Of a stretch of 64,000 nt of DNA, positions 44,716 to 50,018 are shown one piece after another (within the stretch, counting starts at the first letter, position 1; the number at the start of each line of letters is the position of its first letter). The position numbers and the translations under genes were made by a program. The notes below the pieces were generated by a model. That model worked only from the letters and a program-made list of their open reading frames with translations. It was not told the DNA's origin and made no database searches. The DNA comes from Rhizorhabdus wittichii RW1. Lineage in GTDB: Bacteria > Pseudomonadota > Alphaproteobacteria > Sphingomonadales > Sphingomonadaceae. The DNA lies in NCBI GenBank assembly GCA_000016765.1, contig CP000699.1:1054001-1118000 (forward strand). Reading direction: 5' to 3'.

Positions 44716-47061
44716 ATGATGAAGCCATTCCTCACATCGGGTGCGAGCGATCGGGCGCTCGGCCTCGCGCTGGCTGGCGCGGCGCTGCTCGCGGCGGCCC
44801 CGGCCGTCGCGCAGGAGGCATCCGGCAGTTCGGACACGATTGAAGAGATCGTCGTCACTGCCCAGAAAAGAAACGAGAATATGCAGTCGACGCCGATCGC
44901 GATCTCGGCCTTCACCGCCGACGCGATCAGCCGCAAGGGGCTGTCCGACATCCAGCAGGTGTCGCGCCTCGCGCCCAACGTCTCGTTCGACTTCACCTCC
45001 CCGATCAGCGGCGCGTCCAACGCGGCGTCGGTGTTCATCCGCGGCATCGGCCAGCAGGATTTCGCGCTGACCACCGATCCCGGCGTCGGCACCTATGTCG
45101 ACGGCGTCTATGTCTCCCGATCGGTCGGCGGCGTGCTCGACGTGCTCGACATCGAGCGGATGGAGATCCTCCGCGGGCCGCAGGGGACGCTGTTCGGCCG
45201 CAACACGATCGGCGGCGCCATCTCGATCATCTCGAAGATGCCGGAGAAGGAATTCGGCGGCTCGCTCGAAGCCTCGCTCGGCAATTATGGCCGCCGCTAT
45301 CTGCGCGGTTCGGTCAGCCTGCCGCTCGGCCCCGACACGGCGGTCCGTATCTCGGTTTCCTCCAAGGATAAGAACGGTTTCGTCAAGTCTGCTTATACAC
45401 CACAGCAGAAGTCGCTGCTCGGCGGAACGCCGCTGACCGACCTCGGCAACGAGAACCGGCAGGCCGCGCGGATGGTGCTGGTCCATGATTTTTCGGACCG
45501 GTTCAAGGCGACCCTGTCGGGCGACTATAGCCGCCTGCGCGAGAACAACGCCGCCGACCGGCTCGCCGGGATCACCGGCACGCTGGCGGACGGGCCGCTG
45601 GTCTTCGCCTACAACACGTTCGGGTCGACGCCCTCGGTCATCCCGGTGATCGGCAACGACCGCTACGTCCCGGCCAACTACATCACCGGCCGCGACCGGA
45701 CCTATTCGACCGGCCCGAACGGCAGCAGCATCGACGCCTGGGGCACCGCGCTGACGCTCGACTTCGAGGCGAGCGAGAGCCTGTCGATCAAGTCGATCAC
45801 CGCCTATCGCAAGACCACCGGATCGTTCAACCGCGACGCCGACGGATCGCCGCTGGTGATCACCGAAACCTCCAACTACGGCTATCGCCACAAGCAGTTC
45901 ACCCAGGAATTGCAGGCGGTCGGCGACGTCGCCGACGGCGCGGTCAAATATGCCGCCGGCCTGTTCTATTTCGACGAGAAGGGATCGGACCCGCTGGTCG
46001 TCCGCCTGCCCGAGGTGGTCGGCACCATCTACCAGGACATCGCCGACGTCCGGAACAAGAGCTACGCCGCCTATGCCCAGGCGACCTGGACGATCGTCGA
46101 CGGCCTGTCGCTGACCGCCGGCGGGCGCTACACCAAGGACAGGAAGCGCTTCGTCTCCGACCAGTATATCGTCACCGGATCGGCCTCGCCCTTCCTGTTC
46201 GGCGGCGCGCCGGCCGGCACGCTGATCCCGCTCGTGCCCCGCAACTCGGTCACCACCCAGTCGTTCGAGAAATTCTCGCCGCGCGCGAGCGTCGACTATC
46301 GGATCGGCGACGTGCTGGTCTACGGCTCCTACAGCAAGGGCTTCAAGAGCGGCGGCTTCAACCTGCGCTACGTCGCGCCGCGCCCGTCGGTGCTGTCCTT
46401 CGGCCCGGAAAACGCCACCACCTTCGAGGTCGGCACCAAGATCGACGCGTTCGACCGCAAGCTCCGCCTCAACCTCGCCGCCTTCACCACCGACTATAAG
46501 GGCATCCAGGTCACCGTGTTCGAGAATCTCGGCGCGCCGGTGACGCTCAACGCCGGCGACGCGCGGATCAAGGGGTTCGAGGCGGAACTGACCGCCATCC
46601 CCCTCCCCGGCCTCGAGCTCACCGCCAATCTCGGCTATCTCGACAGCCACTACACTGCGATCCGCGCCAATCCGGCGCTGGTCAGCACGCCCGAGCAGAT
46701 CATCAGCCGCTCGACCCGCCTGCCCAAGGCGCCCGAATGGCAGGGGACGATCAGCGCCGCCTACACCTACACGCTGGGCAACGACGCCAGGCTCGACGCG
46801 CGGGCGGACTTCCACTTCTCGTCGCGCTACGCCAACGACGCGGTCAACTCGCGCTTCCTCAACCAGAAGGCCTATCAGACGCTCGGCCTGTCGGCGGGCT
46901 ACACCGCGCCCGACCGCCGCTGGTCGCTGCGCCTGTTCGTCGACAACCTCACCGACGAGCGCTACATCGTCTCGGGCGACAGCAATTACGGCATCGGCTT
47001 CCACGAAGCCAACTACAACCGCCCCCGCGAATGGGGCGCGACGCTGGGCTTCAACTTCTGA
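44716..47061 (+). CDS. TonB-dependent outer-membrane receptor
   Basis: A 781-residue receptor: signal peptide (ALGLALAGAALLAAAPAVAQ), TonB-box-like EEIVVTAQKRNEN, plug (VFIRGIGQQDFALTTDPGVGTYVDG, LRGPQGTLFGRNTIGGAI) and barrel ending in the terminal Phe of WGATLGFNF. GGGAG precedes the tandem ATG ATG start. It follows the nitrilase-oxd pair on the same strand with a REP pair between, so it may import an aldoxime or nitrile-related compound, but this is inference. Confidence 0.92.
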   Translation: MMKPFLTSGASDRALGLALAGAALLAAAPAVAQEASGSSDTIEEIVVTAQKRNENMQSTPIAISAFTADAISRKGLSDIQQVSRLAPNVSFDFTSPISGASNAASVFIRGIGQQDFALTTDPGVGTYVDGVYVSRSVGGVLDVLDIERMEILRGPQGTLFGRNTIGGAISIISKMPEKEFGGSLEASLGNYGRRYLRGSVSLPLGPDTAVRISVSSKDKNGFVKSAYTPQQKSLLGGTPLTDLGNENRQAARMVLVHDFSDRFKATLSGDYSRLRENNAADRLAGITGTLADGPLVFAYNTFGSTPSVIPVIGNDRYVPANYITGRDRTYSTGPNGSSIDAWGTALTLDFEASESLSIKSITAYRKTTGSFNRDADGSPLVITETSNYGYRHKQFTQELQAVGDVADGAVKYAAGLFYFDEKGSDPLVVRLPEVVGTIYQDIADVRNKSYAAYAQATWTIVDGLSLTAGGRYTKDRKRFVSDQYIVTGSASPFLFGGAPAGTLIPLVPRNSVTTQSFEKFSPRASVDYRIGDVLVYGSYSKGFKSGGFNLRYVAPRPSVLSFGPENATTFEVGTKIDAFDRKLRLNLAAFTTDYKGIQVTVFENLGAPVTLNAGDARIKGFEAELTAIPLPGLELTANLGYLDSHYTAIRANPALVSTPEQIISRSTRLPKAPEWQGTISAAYTYTLGNDARLDARADFHFSSRYANDAVNSRFLNQKAYQTLGLSAGYTAPDRRWSLRLFVDNLTDERYIVSGDSNYGIGFHEANYNRPREWGATLGFNF

Positions 47062-47073
47062 GCCTGATGCTCC

Positions 47074-47100
47074 CCGGCCGGTTCGCAGCGGACCGGCCGG
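47074..47100 (+). terminator. terminator-like hairpin after the receptor gene
   Basis: Nine-base stem CCGGCCGGT / ACCGGCCGG around a 9-base loop, 12 bases after the receptor stop, followed by a mixed C/T stretch (CGACTTCTTCTTCG) rather than a pure T-run. Confidence 0.5.
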
Positions 47101-47112
47101 CGACTTCTTCTT

Positions 47113-47209
47113 CGTCATTCCCGCGAAGGCGGGAATCCACCGACACACGAGTCCCGAACCAACAGAGACACGACCAGGCGGCCTGGTGGATTCCCGCCTT
47201 CGCGGGAAT
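47113..47209. repeat. REP pair interrupted by the IS110 element
   Basis: Left palindrome GTCATTCCCGCGAAGGCGGG and right palindrome starting CCCGCCTTCGCGGGAAT. The right unit breaks off at AT (47208-47209) instead of reading ATGACG as in the copy at 32985-33078. The missing GACG appears at 48384, after the IS element. This REP is therefore the insertion target. Confidence 0.88.
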
Positions 47210-47227
47210 TGTCTCTCGGGAAAATGA

Positions 47228-47233
47228 TTTAAG
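47228..47233 (+). promoter_or_regulatory. -10 half of a predicted junction promoter formed on circularisation
   Basis: TTTAAG here lies exactly 17 bases after TTGATT, which is created only when the right end (TTGAT, 48379-48383) is joined to the left end (T, 47210). Both hexamers match the sigma-70 consensus at 4 of 6 positions. Such circle-junction promoters are known in IS110-type elements and would drive both the noncoding RNA and the transposase. Confidence 0.6.
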
Positions 47234-47239
47234 AGTGGG

Positions 47240-47415
47240 TGGCTGGCGAGACGAGCTGCGGGGTGGCCACCCCGCAGCTCGTGGCGGCAAGGCGCCCGTG
47301 CGGGAATAGGTCGAAACGACCGACGTCATCCAGGGCTCTTGTCGCCCCAGCTTCGCATCGCTTGCTGACTTGAATGGGCCGCCTTTCGGCACGCCCGCAG
47401 ACAATTCGAAGCATG
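47240..47415 (+). ncRNA. predicted bridge RNA of the IS110 element
   Basis: Noncoding left end, about 175 nt, with three structured parts. First, a 5' stem-loop from a perfect 28-base palindrome (47253-47280). Second, a target loop closed by a long stem (47283-47297 with 47333-47346). It contains GCGGGAAT (47300-47307), equal to the left target half, the inner hairpin GGTCG-AAA-CGACC (47309-47321), and CGTCAT (47324-47329), complementary to the right target half ATGACG. Third, a donor loop closed by GCTTCG/CGAAGC (47350-47355, 47407-47412). It contains CTGACTTGA (47365-47373), equal to the right end of the element, and AGACAATT (47399-47406), complementary to its left end. Order and polarity match the bridge RNA of IS621. 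Exact RNA ends are estimated. Confidence 0.82.
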
Positions 47416-47425
47416 GGACCCCAAG

Positions 47426-48382
47426 ATGATACGATATGCCGACGAAATCCAGACAGCTCTTGGCCTCGACGTATCCCAGGACAGCGTGACCCTGTTCGAC
47501 AGCGTAACCGGCCAGACCCTCACCATAGCCAACGAGACCCAGGCCCTCACGGCCGCGCTCGATCCGCTGCGCAACCGCGATCTGGCCGTATGCGAAGCGA
47601 CCGGAGGCCATGAGGACAAGCTCCTCGCCGTCCTCTGCGGCCTCGCCATCCCCGTTCACCGCGGTGATGCCGCCAAGATCAAGGCCTATATCCGCTCCTT
47701 CGGCAAACGCGCCAAGACCGACCCCATCGATGCCCGCTGGCTCAGCCGCTACGCCATCGACCGCAGTCCCGGCCTGATGCGCTGGCAACCTCCCGAGCCT
47801 TGCCAGGCCCAGATCAGCCTCCTCGTCTCACGACGCCTCGATCTCGTCGCCATGAAGCGCCAGGAAACCAATCGCCTCAAGGCCCCTCGTGGGCATCTCG
47901 TCGCCGACGACATCCGCGACCATATCGCCGATCTCGAACACCGTATCCGCACCATCGAGGTTCAGATCGAGGAGCTCATCAACCAACACCGCGACCTCAC
48001 CTCCCGCGCTCGCGCCTTGCGATCCATCCCAGGCGTCGCCGCCGTCCTCGCTCCTCTCCTGATCGCAACCATGCCCGAACTCGGCTCTCTCAACCGCCGG
48101 CAGGCCGCAAGCCTCGCTGGTTGCGCCCCTCATCCCAGAGACAGCGGAAAACTCCAGGCCCGCCGACACAGCTCAGGCGGACGAAGGCAGATCAGGCCCG
48201 CCCTCTTCATCGCCGCCCTCGCCGCCGCTCGCGGCAAAAATCCTCTCGCAGACTTCTACAACGCACTCGTCCGCGCTGGAAAACCCAAACGCCTCGCTCT
48301 CGCCGCCCTCATGCGCAAAATTATCTGCATCGCCAATGCTCGCATCCGCGACGCTGCCAATCTCCAGCCTCAACTGACTTGA
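47426..48382 (+). CDS. IS110-family transposase (DEDD recombinase)
   Basis: A 318-residue transposase with an N-terminal RuvC-like DEDD domain and a C-terminal Transposase_20 domain. The acidic residues are D15 (LGLDVSQ), E57 (CEATGG), D99 and D102 (KTDPIDA). The Transposase_20 domain is seen in SIPGVAAVLAPLLIA and ASLAGCAPHPRDSGK, where Ser240 is the likely catalytic serine. Length is normal and there is no frameshift, so the element may be active. The gene starts 20 bases after the last guide of the predicted bridge RNA and its TGA overlaps the right-end core. Confidence 0.95.
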   Translation: MIRYADEIQTALGLDVSQDSVTLFDSVTGQTLTIANETQALTAALDPLRNRDLAVCEATGGHEDKLLAVLCGLAIPVHRGDAAKIKAYIRSFGKRAKTDPIDARWLSRYAIDRSPGLMRWQPPEPCQAQISLLVSRRLDLVAMKRQETNRLKAPRGHLVADDIRDHIADLEHRIRTIEVQIEELINQHRDLTSRARALRSIPGVAAVLAPLLIATMPELGSLNRRQAASLAGCAPHPRDSGKLQARRHSSGGRRQIRPALFIAALAAARGKNPLADFYNALVRAGKPKRLALAALMRKIICIANARIRDAANLQPQLT

Positions 48383-48524
48383 TGACGGTGGGGGAGGATG
48401 GGCCGCGCCCGCCACTCATTCGTTCCACGCAGGAACAACTCTTTTTCGATCATATCCGCTACCGCAAAAATCACCCGCCCGATAAGACCGTTGCGGAGTC
48501 GGCGGCGGGGGTGGATGATCGAGC

Positions 48525-50018
48525 ATGACGTTGAGGATGCCGACACCGGACGAGGCCGTGCTTGCCCGCCGCGCGGAGATCGTCGCGGCGCTGCGGGCGA
48601 TCGTGCCCGGCGAAGGCGTGATCGACGATGCCGACGAGCTTCGCCCCTATGAGAGCGACGGGCTGACCGCCTATCGCCAGCCGCCGATGGTCGTCGTCCT
48701 GCCCGAGACGGTCGATCAGGTCGCGGCGGTGCTGCGCTGGTGCCATGCCAACGGCGTCCGCGTCGTGCCGCGCGGCGCGGGCACGTCGCTCTCGGGCGGG
48801 GCGCTGCCGCTGGCCGACGCGGTGCTGCTCGGCATGGCGCGCTTCAACCGCATCCTCGCCATCGACTATGCCGACCGCATCGCGGTGGTCCAGCCCGGCG
48901 TCACCAACCTCGCCATCACCCGCGCGGTCGAGGAGGAGGGCTTCTACTACGCCCCCGACCCGTCGAGCCAGATCGCCTGCACGATCGGCGGCAACGTCGC
49001 CGAGAATTCGGGCGGGGTGCATTGCCTGAAATATGGGCTGACCACCAACAACGTCCTCGGCGTCGAGCTGGTGACGATCGAGGGCGAGGTGCTGCGCCTC
49101 GGCGGCCGCCACCTCGACCCGGCCGGGCTCGACCTGCTCGGCGTCGTCGTCGGGTCGGAAGGGCTGCTCGGCGTCGTCACCGAGGTGACCGTCCGCATCC
49201 TGCCCCGGCCCGAGACCGCGCGCGCCGCGCTGATCGGCTTCCCGACCGTAGAGAGCGCCGGCCAGTGCGTCGCCGACGTCATCGCCGCCGGCATCATCCC
49301 GGCGGGGATGGAGATGATGGACCGCCCCGCCATCCACGCCGCCGAGGCGTTCGTGCAGGTCGGCTATCCGCTCGACGTCGAGGCGCTGCTGATCGTCGAG
49401 ATGGACGGCCCCGCCGCCGAATGCGACCATCTGGTCGACGAGGTGGCGCGGATCGCCGACGCCAACGGCGCGGTGTCGCTGCGCGTCTCCAACGACGATG
49501 CCGAGCGGCTGGCCTTCTGGGCGGGGCGCAAGGCCGCCTTCCCCGCCGTCGGCCGGATCGCGCCCGATTATTATTGCATGGACGGCACCATCCCGCGCCG
49601 CCGCCTGCCCGAGGTGCTGCGCCGCATGTCCGAGCTGGCCGCGCATCACGGGCTGGGCGTCGCCAACGTCTTCCATGCCGGCGACGGCAATCTCCACCCG
49701 CTGATCCTCTACGATGCGCACAAGCCCGGCGACCTCGAGCGGGCCGAGGAATTCGGCAACGACATATTGCGCCTCTGCGTCGAGGTCGGCGGGGTGCTGA
49801 CCGGCGAGCATGGCGTCGGCGTCGAGAAGCGCGACCTGATGCCCGAGATGTTCAGCGACATCGACCTGAAGCAGCAGCAGCGCGTCAAATGCGCCTTCGA
49901 TCCGGCCTCGCTGCTCAATCCGGGCAAGGTCTTCCCGACGCTGCACCGCTGCGCCGAGCTGGGACGGATGCACGTCCATGGCGGCGCGCTGCCCTTTCCC
50001 GATCTTCCGCGCTTCTGA
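48525..50018 (+). CDS. glcD: glycolate oxidase subunit GlcD (FAD-linked)
   Basis: A 497-residue FAD-binding oxidase/lactate-type dehydrogenase. The FAD-binding PCMH domain is seen in VRVVPRGAGTSLSGGALPL, YYAPDPSSQIACTIGGNVAENSGG and the C-terminal domain in NVFHAGDGNLHPLILYD and GVLTGEHGVGVEKRDLMPEMF. GlcD oxidises glycolate to glyoxylate with electrons passing via GlcF to quinone. First gene of glcDEF, its stop overlapping the glcE start (TGATG). Another ATG lies four codons in. It begins 142 bases after the IS110 element. Confidence 0.94.
   Translation: MTLRMPTPDEAVLARRAEIVAALRAIVPGEGVIDDADELRPYESDGLTAYRQPPMVVVLPETVDQVAAVLRWCHANGVRVVPRGAGTSLSGGALPLADAVLLGMARFNRILAIDYADRIAVVQPGVTNLAITRAVEEEGFYYAPDPSSQIACTIGGNVAENSGGVHCLKYGLTTNNVLGVELVTIEGEVLRLGGRHLDPAGLDLLGVVVGSEGLLGVVTEVTVRILPRPETARAALIGFPTVESAGQCVADVIAAGIIPAGMEMMDRPAIHAAEAFVQVGYPLDVEALLIVEMDGPAAECDHLVDEVARIADANGAVSLRVSNDDAERLAFWAGRKAAFPAVGRIAPDYYCMDGTIPRRRLPEVLRRMSELAAHHGLGVANVFHAGDGNLHPLILYDAHKPGDLERAEEFGNDILRLCVEVGGVLTGEHGVGVEKRDLMPEMFSDIDLKQQQRVKCAFDPASLLNPGKVFPTLHRCAELGRMHVHGGALPFPDLPRF

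Follow-up and report, generated by a model that had tools for sequence, protein, structure and literature searches.

The closest described relatives of the locus reported here are IS621 and ISEc21. In IS621, a recombinase with a DEDD set and a catalytic serine works with a 177-nt bridge RNA from the left end of the element, in which a 5' stem-loop is followed by a target loop and then a donor loop, with sense left guides and antisense right guides that include the core; the circle junction forms a promoter and insertion is into repetitive extragenic palindromic (REP) sequences (PMC11208160, PMC11208158). ISEc21 carries its seekRNA in an upstream non-coding region, with a bottom-strand and then a top-strand guide match and again a junction promoter, and a shorter, 74-nt form of the RNA was reported to be the more abundant (PMC11187229). 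Four other IS110-family elements, ISPa11, ISPpu9, ISPpu10 and ISRm19, also lie inside REPs, in other hosts and other REP sequences (PMC1525189).

We analysed a window of 64,000 nucleotides from Rhizorhabdus wittichii RW1 that holds a further element of this kind. Here we show its anatomy, the identities of its guides, the site specificity of its four genomic copies and the covariation of its stems and guides. On this evidence we consider it almost certain that it is an IS110-group insertion sequence whose left-end bridge RNA guides the recombinase to the REP site GCGGGA-AT-GACG, where it inserts from a circle joint. The IS621 features of recombinase, RNA layout, guide polarity and REP insertion recur here, with an RNA predicted at about 176 nt and a candidate junction promoter recognized by sequence, and the guide arrangement and non-coding region of ISEc21 recur as well. 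However, the core is AT here and CT in IS621, the target sequence differs, the right donor guide is contiguous (7 nt) where that of IS621 is interrupted, the left donor guide extends over the first core base but not the second, and the right end lies inside the recombinase gene. ISEc21 differs in its target, a conserved stretch of IS3-family transposase genes. ISPa11 has been placed in the IS1111 group, and we liken it, ISPpu9, ISPpu10 and ISRm19 to our element by REP location. AT cores supported IS621 recombination in cells without being preferred, and the core T was almost invariant (PMC11208158).

The novelty is modest, that of a further IS110/IS621 bridge-RNA example with AT instead of CT as the core, and the general picture is unchanged, since bridge RNAs of IS110 elements and the targeting of REPs by such elements have been published before (PMC11208160, PMC1525189). 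Our literature search did not find IS110, repetitive extragenic palindromic sequences and Sphingo- names treated together, and among the matches listed the IS110 and insertion-sequence literature did not mention wittichii RW1; we do not claim that the element or its AT-core clade is absent from print. What the locus offers is a natural bridge-RNA system that is fully readable: its four copies are identical, its target family is abundant, and in its relatives guide changes are matched by site changes. It provides a natural test, independent of the published work, of the pairing rules reported there, the handshake base included, and an AT-core enzyme for comparison with the CT-core IS621.

The element and its recombinase

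The AT core that the first-pass annotation had proposed stands at 47208-47209 and again at 48382-48383, and therefore the element spans 47208-48381, or 1174 bp with one AT core counted. The genome (5,915,246 bases in total, 5,382,261 in the chromosome) carries four copies that are identical across the 1173 bases searched and share this core, and no match to the window recombinase beyond these four was found in it at E 0.001. A tblastn search against plasmids returned 1293 records, every one below 60% identity. The left end measures 216 nt and the right end 2 nt, the latter being the first two bases of the stop codon, and the longest exact inverted match between the terminal 50 nt is 6, against a shuffled mean of 5.55. 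A long non-coding left end and a short right end without long subterminal inverted repeats are the features of the IS110 group; the downstream non-coding RNA region and long subterminal inverted repeats of the IS1111 group are absent. By anatomy the element is thus of the IS110 group, not IS1111. IS621 orthologues in the strict sense have a CT core, and since the core is AT in all four copies we assigned the element to the IS110 group and did not file it as an IS621 orthologue.

The recombinase matched PF01548 and PF02371 (DEDD_Tnp_IS110 and Transposase_20), both above the Pfam cut-off, and two distinct solved proteins at E up to 0.001, ISCro4 (9t56, E 1.5e-25) and IS621 (8wt6, E 5.2e-25). It has the D-E-D-D residues and the conserved serine of the IS110 family. 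In the HMMER alignment E57, D99, D102 and S240 stand opposite E, D, D and S of IS621; D15 was assigned by motif only, the IS621 alignment beginning at residue 55. Across 11 aligned proteins D15, D99 and D102 are invariant, and E57 and S240 are not. Read by eye, the serine position is threonine in L088 (PNDTGK), an element whose target guides match 8/8 and 6/6 and whose source genome is listed as 10% contaminated, and the E of the DEDD set is D in L069, L071 and L073 (DTTGG or DLTGG). The stop codon TGA (48380-48382) is completed by the A of the core, so that the end of the gene overlaps both the donor half and the -35 box that the junction would form. A core-completed TGA was seen by eye at the same place in L018, L068, L088, L103, L105, L108 and L113.

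The insertion site in host REPs

All four copies are inserted at GCGGGA-AT-GACG, as their guides dictate; they are flanked by ...CGCGGGAAT on the left and TGACG... on the right, and their outer flanks otherwise differ. A site that did not match the guides had been set beforehand as a refutation test, and the three copies outside the window passed it. The 12-mer GCGGGAATGACG has 192 intact genomic copies (95 forward, 97 reverse), compared with none for the reversed control. Many of the places listed, which are part of the 192, lie in inverted orientation to a partner about 16 or about 80-90 bp away, a spacing that REPs and paired REPs would give, and the target is one arm of a palindrome. CGTC-tagged REP families have been reported in S. 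wittichii (PMC3733652), and the window repeat starts with CGTC. Two REPs form an inverted pair at 47113-47209, and the window copy is inserted in the second of them; the arm of the first, CGTCATTCCCGC, is intact at 47113. A search for a REP-associated tyrosine transposase gave no Y1_Tnp (PF01797) match in the RW1 genome at E 0.001; in the control search the family was present in 5 of 14 genomes.

The predicted bridge RNA

The left end folds into a 14-bp 5' hairpin, a target loop made of a long stem with an apical hairpin, and a donor loop (Table 1). For the 191-nt fold z was -3.88, and none of 200 shuffles was equally good. The fold reproduced the long stem 47283-47297/47333-47346 that the first-pass annotation had drawn, and the GGTCG/CGACC hairpin was where that annotation had put it. 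In a search that tolerated no mismatch, 8 of 14 left ends had a 5' stem of at least 13 uninterrupted pairs, G-U allowed, and the remaining 6 had stems of 5 to 7 pairs. By itself the donor loop is unremarkable in stability (z = -1.1; -2.0, 0.4 and 0.1 for three relatives folded), and on energy alone it is the least convincing part. An Rfam scan of 46900-48700 matched no curated RNA family; its one hit, to a microRNA model on the REP pair (E 0.99, far below cut-off), was rejected as chance.

Table 1. Features of the element and its insertion site, in window coordinates
Feature	Position	Strand	Basis
Left target half plus core, GCGGGA-AT, in right arm of host REP	47202..47209	+	Sequence; same left flank in 4/4 copies
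IS110-family insertion sequence	47208..48381	+	Ends from flanks; length includes one AT core
Predicted -35 second half, ATT of TTG/ATT, would exist in excised circle only	47208..47210	+	First half TTG at 48379-48381
Candidate -10 box TTTAAG	47228..47233	+	17 bp from junction -35; 4/6 match in this copy
Predicted bridge RNA, ~176 nt	47240..47415	+	Fold z = -3.88; covariation; ends by analogy with 177-nt IS621 RNA
5' stem-loop, 14 bp, loop GGCC	47251..47282	+	-30 kcal/mol, z = -6.15
Target-binding loop, closing stem 47283-47297/47333-47346	47283..47346	+	Fold; 14/14 stem pairs changed on both sides, ten elements
Left target guide GCGGGAAT	47300..47307	+	Identical to 47202-47209; covaries with flanks
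Apical hairpin GGTCG-AAA-CGACC, between target guides	47309..47321	+	Fold; helix 3, 95% of cells paired
Right target guide CGTCAT, antisense to ATGACG	47324..47329	+	Sequence; guide-flank comparison
CC, candidate handshake bases of target loop; the first may pair with donor position 7 (G)	47330..47331	+	Suggested by analogy with IS621
Donor-binding loop closed by GCTTCG/CGAAGC	47350..47412	+	Fold, covariation; weak by energy alone
Left donor guide CTGACTTGA	47365..47373	+	Equals 48374-48382; covaries
Right donor guide AGACAAT	47399..47405	+	Reverse complement of 47208-47214; covaries
TC, candidate handshake bases of donor loop; complement of target positions 6-7 (GA)	47406..47407	+	Guide comparison
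IS110-family DEDD recombinase, 318 aa (D15, E57, D99, D102, S240)	47426..48382	+	Pfam, PDB homology
Right end / left donor half CTGACTTG (final recombinase codons)	48374..48381	+	Sequence and flanks
Core plus right target half, AT-GACG	48382..48387	+	Same in 4/4 copies

The first-pass annotation had read four guides in this region from the letters alone. Three were exact in coordinates and identity: GCGGGAAT against the left flank, CGTCAT against the reverse complement of 48382-48387, and CTGACTTGA against 48374-48382. The fourth, AGACAATT at 47399-47406 as the reverse complement of 47207-47214, was also correctly located, but its eighth base does not belong to the donor pairing: it pairs with A47207, a target base outside the element, which leaves the 7-mer AGACAAT for the donor. 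Pairing of the left donor guide stops after the first core base (...TTGAA against donor ...TTGAT). As in a bridge RNA, the target guides lie in the first loop and the donor guides in the second, the left guides are sense and the right ones antisense, and the core is included, so that the proposed loop order and guide polarity agree with the published IS621 bridge RNA (PMC11208160). Chance had been judged a poor explanation of four ordered matches, and when the left end was mononucleotide-shuffled 200,000 times, the four guides (8, 6, 9 and 7 nt) never appeared in order. Multiplying the individual guide probabilities gives 3.9e-10, a figure that is indicative only, as the motifs were picked after being seen.

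RNA structure in relatives

Five elements, the window copy, L018, L019, L051 and L068, supplied the sequences for a covariance model. The model gave hits at E <1e-4 in 11 of 80 sources, the other 69 of which include several truncated or redundant ones. Further genome sets gave hits in 3 of 296 genomes (RW1 included), in 4 of 398 (including RW1 and the false positive L104) and in 5 of 239 (the centre genome, G1171, included), and a further scan in one of two, the centre itself. RNAs similar to the model occur in genomes of other families. Many of the hits are immediately followed by a recombinase gene, which was identified by protein search or by eye. The recombinase reading frame is broken in L098, runs off the contig in L102, L107 and L111, and is missing in L109. 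Two model matches were dropped: L104 (E 2.4e-5), which has no long ORF after the right-donor-guide motif and lies in what we take, reading by eye, to be a lytic-transglycosylase-like frame, and L109, for which the left junction was not found and which was left out of the later set described below.

On the five model sequences the RNAalifold covariation term was +0.41 kcal/mol, which gives no support by that measure, and 10 of 37 pairs were changed on both sides. With ten aligned elements this rose to 26 of 37, and the target-loop stem had changes on both sides in all 14 of its pairs. The share of paired cells was 88.8%, compared with 69.0% when shuffled and at most 46.7% when slid; the ten-row alignment was fitted to the model, and six of its rows, L069, L070, L071, L073, L088 and L098, are neither model sequences nor copies of these.

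Guides and insertion sites across elements

We compared guides with flanks and ends in 14 distinct elements, with guides and junctions anchored by hand and left junctions sought as AT-TGT; L017, which repeats the L018 element, was excluded from the permutations. These permutations ignore relatedness, and some rows represent one element more than once, as copies or near-copies. The left target guide matched the flank of its own element at 71 of 82 non-core positions (permuted 39.0; 0 of 100,000 as high; 14 elements) and the right target guide, which varies little within the clade, at 38 of 44 (permuted 28.7, p 0.003; 11 elements). For the left donor guide the count was 69 of 77 (permuted 59.5, p 2e-4; 11 elements), and for the right donor guide 68 of 70 (permuted 57.6, p 3e-5; 14 elements), a lenient figure because the junction was partly located by the same match. 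Misfits were kept in the counts: the left flank matches only 3/8 in L071 and 6/8 in L103, L051 fits at 6/8 and 4/6, and the left donor guide of L069 scores 0/7 in the fixed register. L051 (G088) is a shortened copy of 726 bp with degraded guides, inserted in a REP with the right flank ATCACG.

Covariation of this kind bears on whether the left end could be only a structured leader that controls the recombinase message and guides nothing. Its position directly upstream of the ORF and its strong structure would suit such a leader, and ISPpu9 has been reported to be under the control of two small RNAs (PMC8450116). However, a leader would not need identity to target and end sequences that covaries across elements, and we regard this explanation as very improbable. 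The left end may have a regulatory role in addition to guiding.

Individual relatives show how guide and site change together. In L018 (Rhizobium smilacinae) the guides ACAGGAAT and CCTCAT accompany the site ACAGGAAT...ATGAGG; in L105, which with L102 makes a pair of near-copies from one genome, GCGGGGAT and TGTCAT accompany GCGGGGAT...ATGACA; and L073, with the quite different guides GCCGACAT and GCGGAT, sits between GCCGACAT and ATCCGC. In a later set, guides were taken by position in the model, blind to the flanks, from columns fixed in advance, and the left junction was placed by the right donor guide, except that the L112 junction, which the automatic finder missed owing to extra left-end sequence, was read by eye. 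Over its 11 insertions, which come from three genomes, include copies of one element and are not independent, the left guide matched at 59 of 66 non-core positions (permuted 41.4; 7 of 100,000 as high), and the right guide at 25 of 32 over 8 insertions. Left-guide misfits were L116 (5/8) and L117 (6/8), and each of the seven G1401 copies has one mismatch to the right guide (5/6). The core at the left junction was AT in 14 of 14 elements of the first set and in 10 of the 11 later insertions; L116 has GT.

Two elements of G1431, L108 and L112, are identical at 146 of 151 RNA positions and 604 of the 615 bases that follow. Their left guides differ by two bases, GG against AA (GCGGGGAT in L108 versus GCAAGGAT in L112), and their flanks differ by the same two, the insertions lying at GCGGGGAT and GCAAGGAT. 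We read the pair as a natural retargeting. This pair and L073 also weigh on a different explanation, in which the protein recognizes the REP hairpin and so sets the target, and the guide matches are relics or chance REP copies captured by the left end. Its appeal is that the target is a palindrome arm and that some transposases could recognize palindromic REPs as regulators do (PMC1525189). Yet captured REP copies sit poorly with an element whose four matches include both sense and antisense ones and of which two are to the ends of the element itself, and in the relatives guide and site change together even where, as for L073, the site is unlike the window REP, or where near-identical elements differ in both by the same two bases. 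We therefore give the protein-recognition account hardly any credence. The covariation of guides with targets and ends, whose absence the first-pass annotation had named as a refutation, was found, with some misfits, in the first set, the later set and the retargeting pair, and its bridge-RNA interpretation is supported.

Candidate handshake bases

Each right guide of IS621 is followed by a base that can pair with position 7 of the other DNA (PMC11208158). The base that follows AGACAAT in the window RNA is T and target position 7 is A; T complements this A, which explains the eighth base that the first-pass annotation had counted in AGACAATT. That base matches target position 7 as a handshake base would. 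Across the 14 elements the corresponding donor-loop base was complementary to position 7 of the flank in 11 (permuted mean 5.2, p 0.0009; misses in L018, L019 and L069); in 9 it complemented position 7 of the guide itself (p 0.027). The C of the candidate TC (47407) could instead belong to the closing stem.

By a narrow margin we favour the wider reading that these elements form an AT-core bridge-recombinase clade in which the donor left half, the circle -35 and the end of the recombinase gene are one DNA stretch, the donor-loop handshake base coevolves with the core-adjacent target base, and two-base guide changes retarget near-identical elements. If natural two-base changes do retarget such elements, the clade would therefore be a ready source of reprogrammable recombinases unlike IS621.

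The proposed circle junction

We infer expression, RNA binding, strand exchange and promoter activity from the work on IS621 and ISEc21. On that model, excision would join the right end, the AT core and the left end in a circle with the predicted joint ...CAACTGACTTG-AT-TGTCTC.... This joint would build a promoter (-35 TTG/AT/T, -10 TTTAAG) from which the ~176-nt RNA, and probably the recombinase message too, would be transcribed. The bridge RNA would bind the DEDD/serine recombinase, its second loop would read the circle joint through CTGACTTGA for the right end and AGACAAT for the left end, and the recombinase would exchange strands at the AT core and insert the circle in one orientation. 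Insertion would swap the TTG of the -35 for the GGA of the target, and the promoter should weaken.

Joined in this way, the right end, core and left end would read TTGATT 17 bp ahead of TTTAAG, and from these -35 and -10 positions the RNA is expected to start near 47240, as the first-pass annotation had proposed. In the integrated copy the -35 hexamer reads GGAATT. The published IS621 and ISEc21 circles likewise form a junction promoter (PMC11208160, PMC11187229). Among the 11 elements with a known right end, 10 have TTGATT and L069 has TAGATT. When the best -10 was sought at 16-18 bp, it lay at 17 bp in 10 of 14 left ends, with a mean best score over the 14 of 4.0/6 (range 3 to 6; only 3/6 in five of them), compared with 2.56 in mononucleotide shuffles (0 of 5000 as high). 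The left end of L112 has about 128 extra bases between its left junction and the RNA relative to its near-twin L108, which by eye apparently hold another hairpin.
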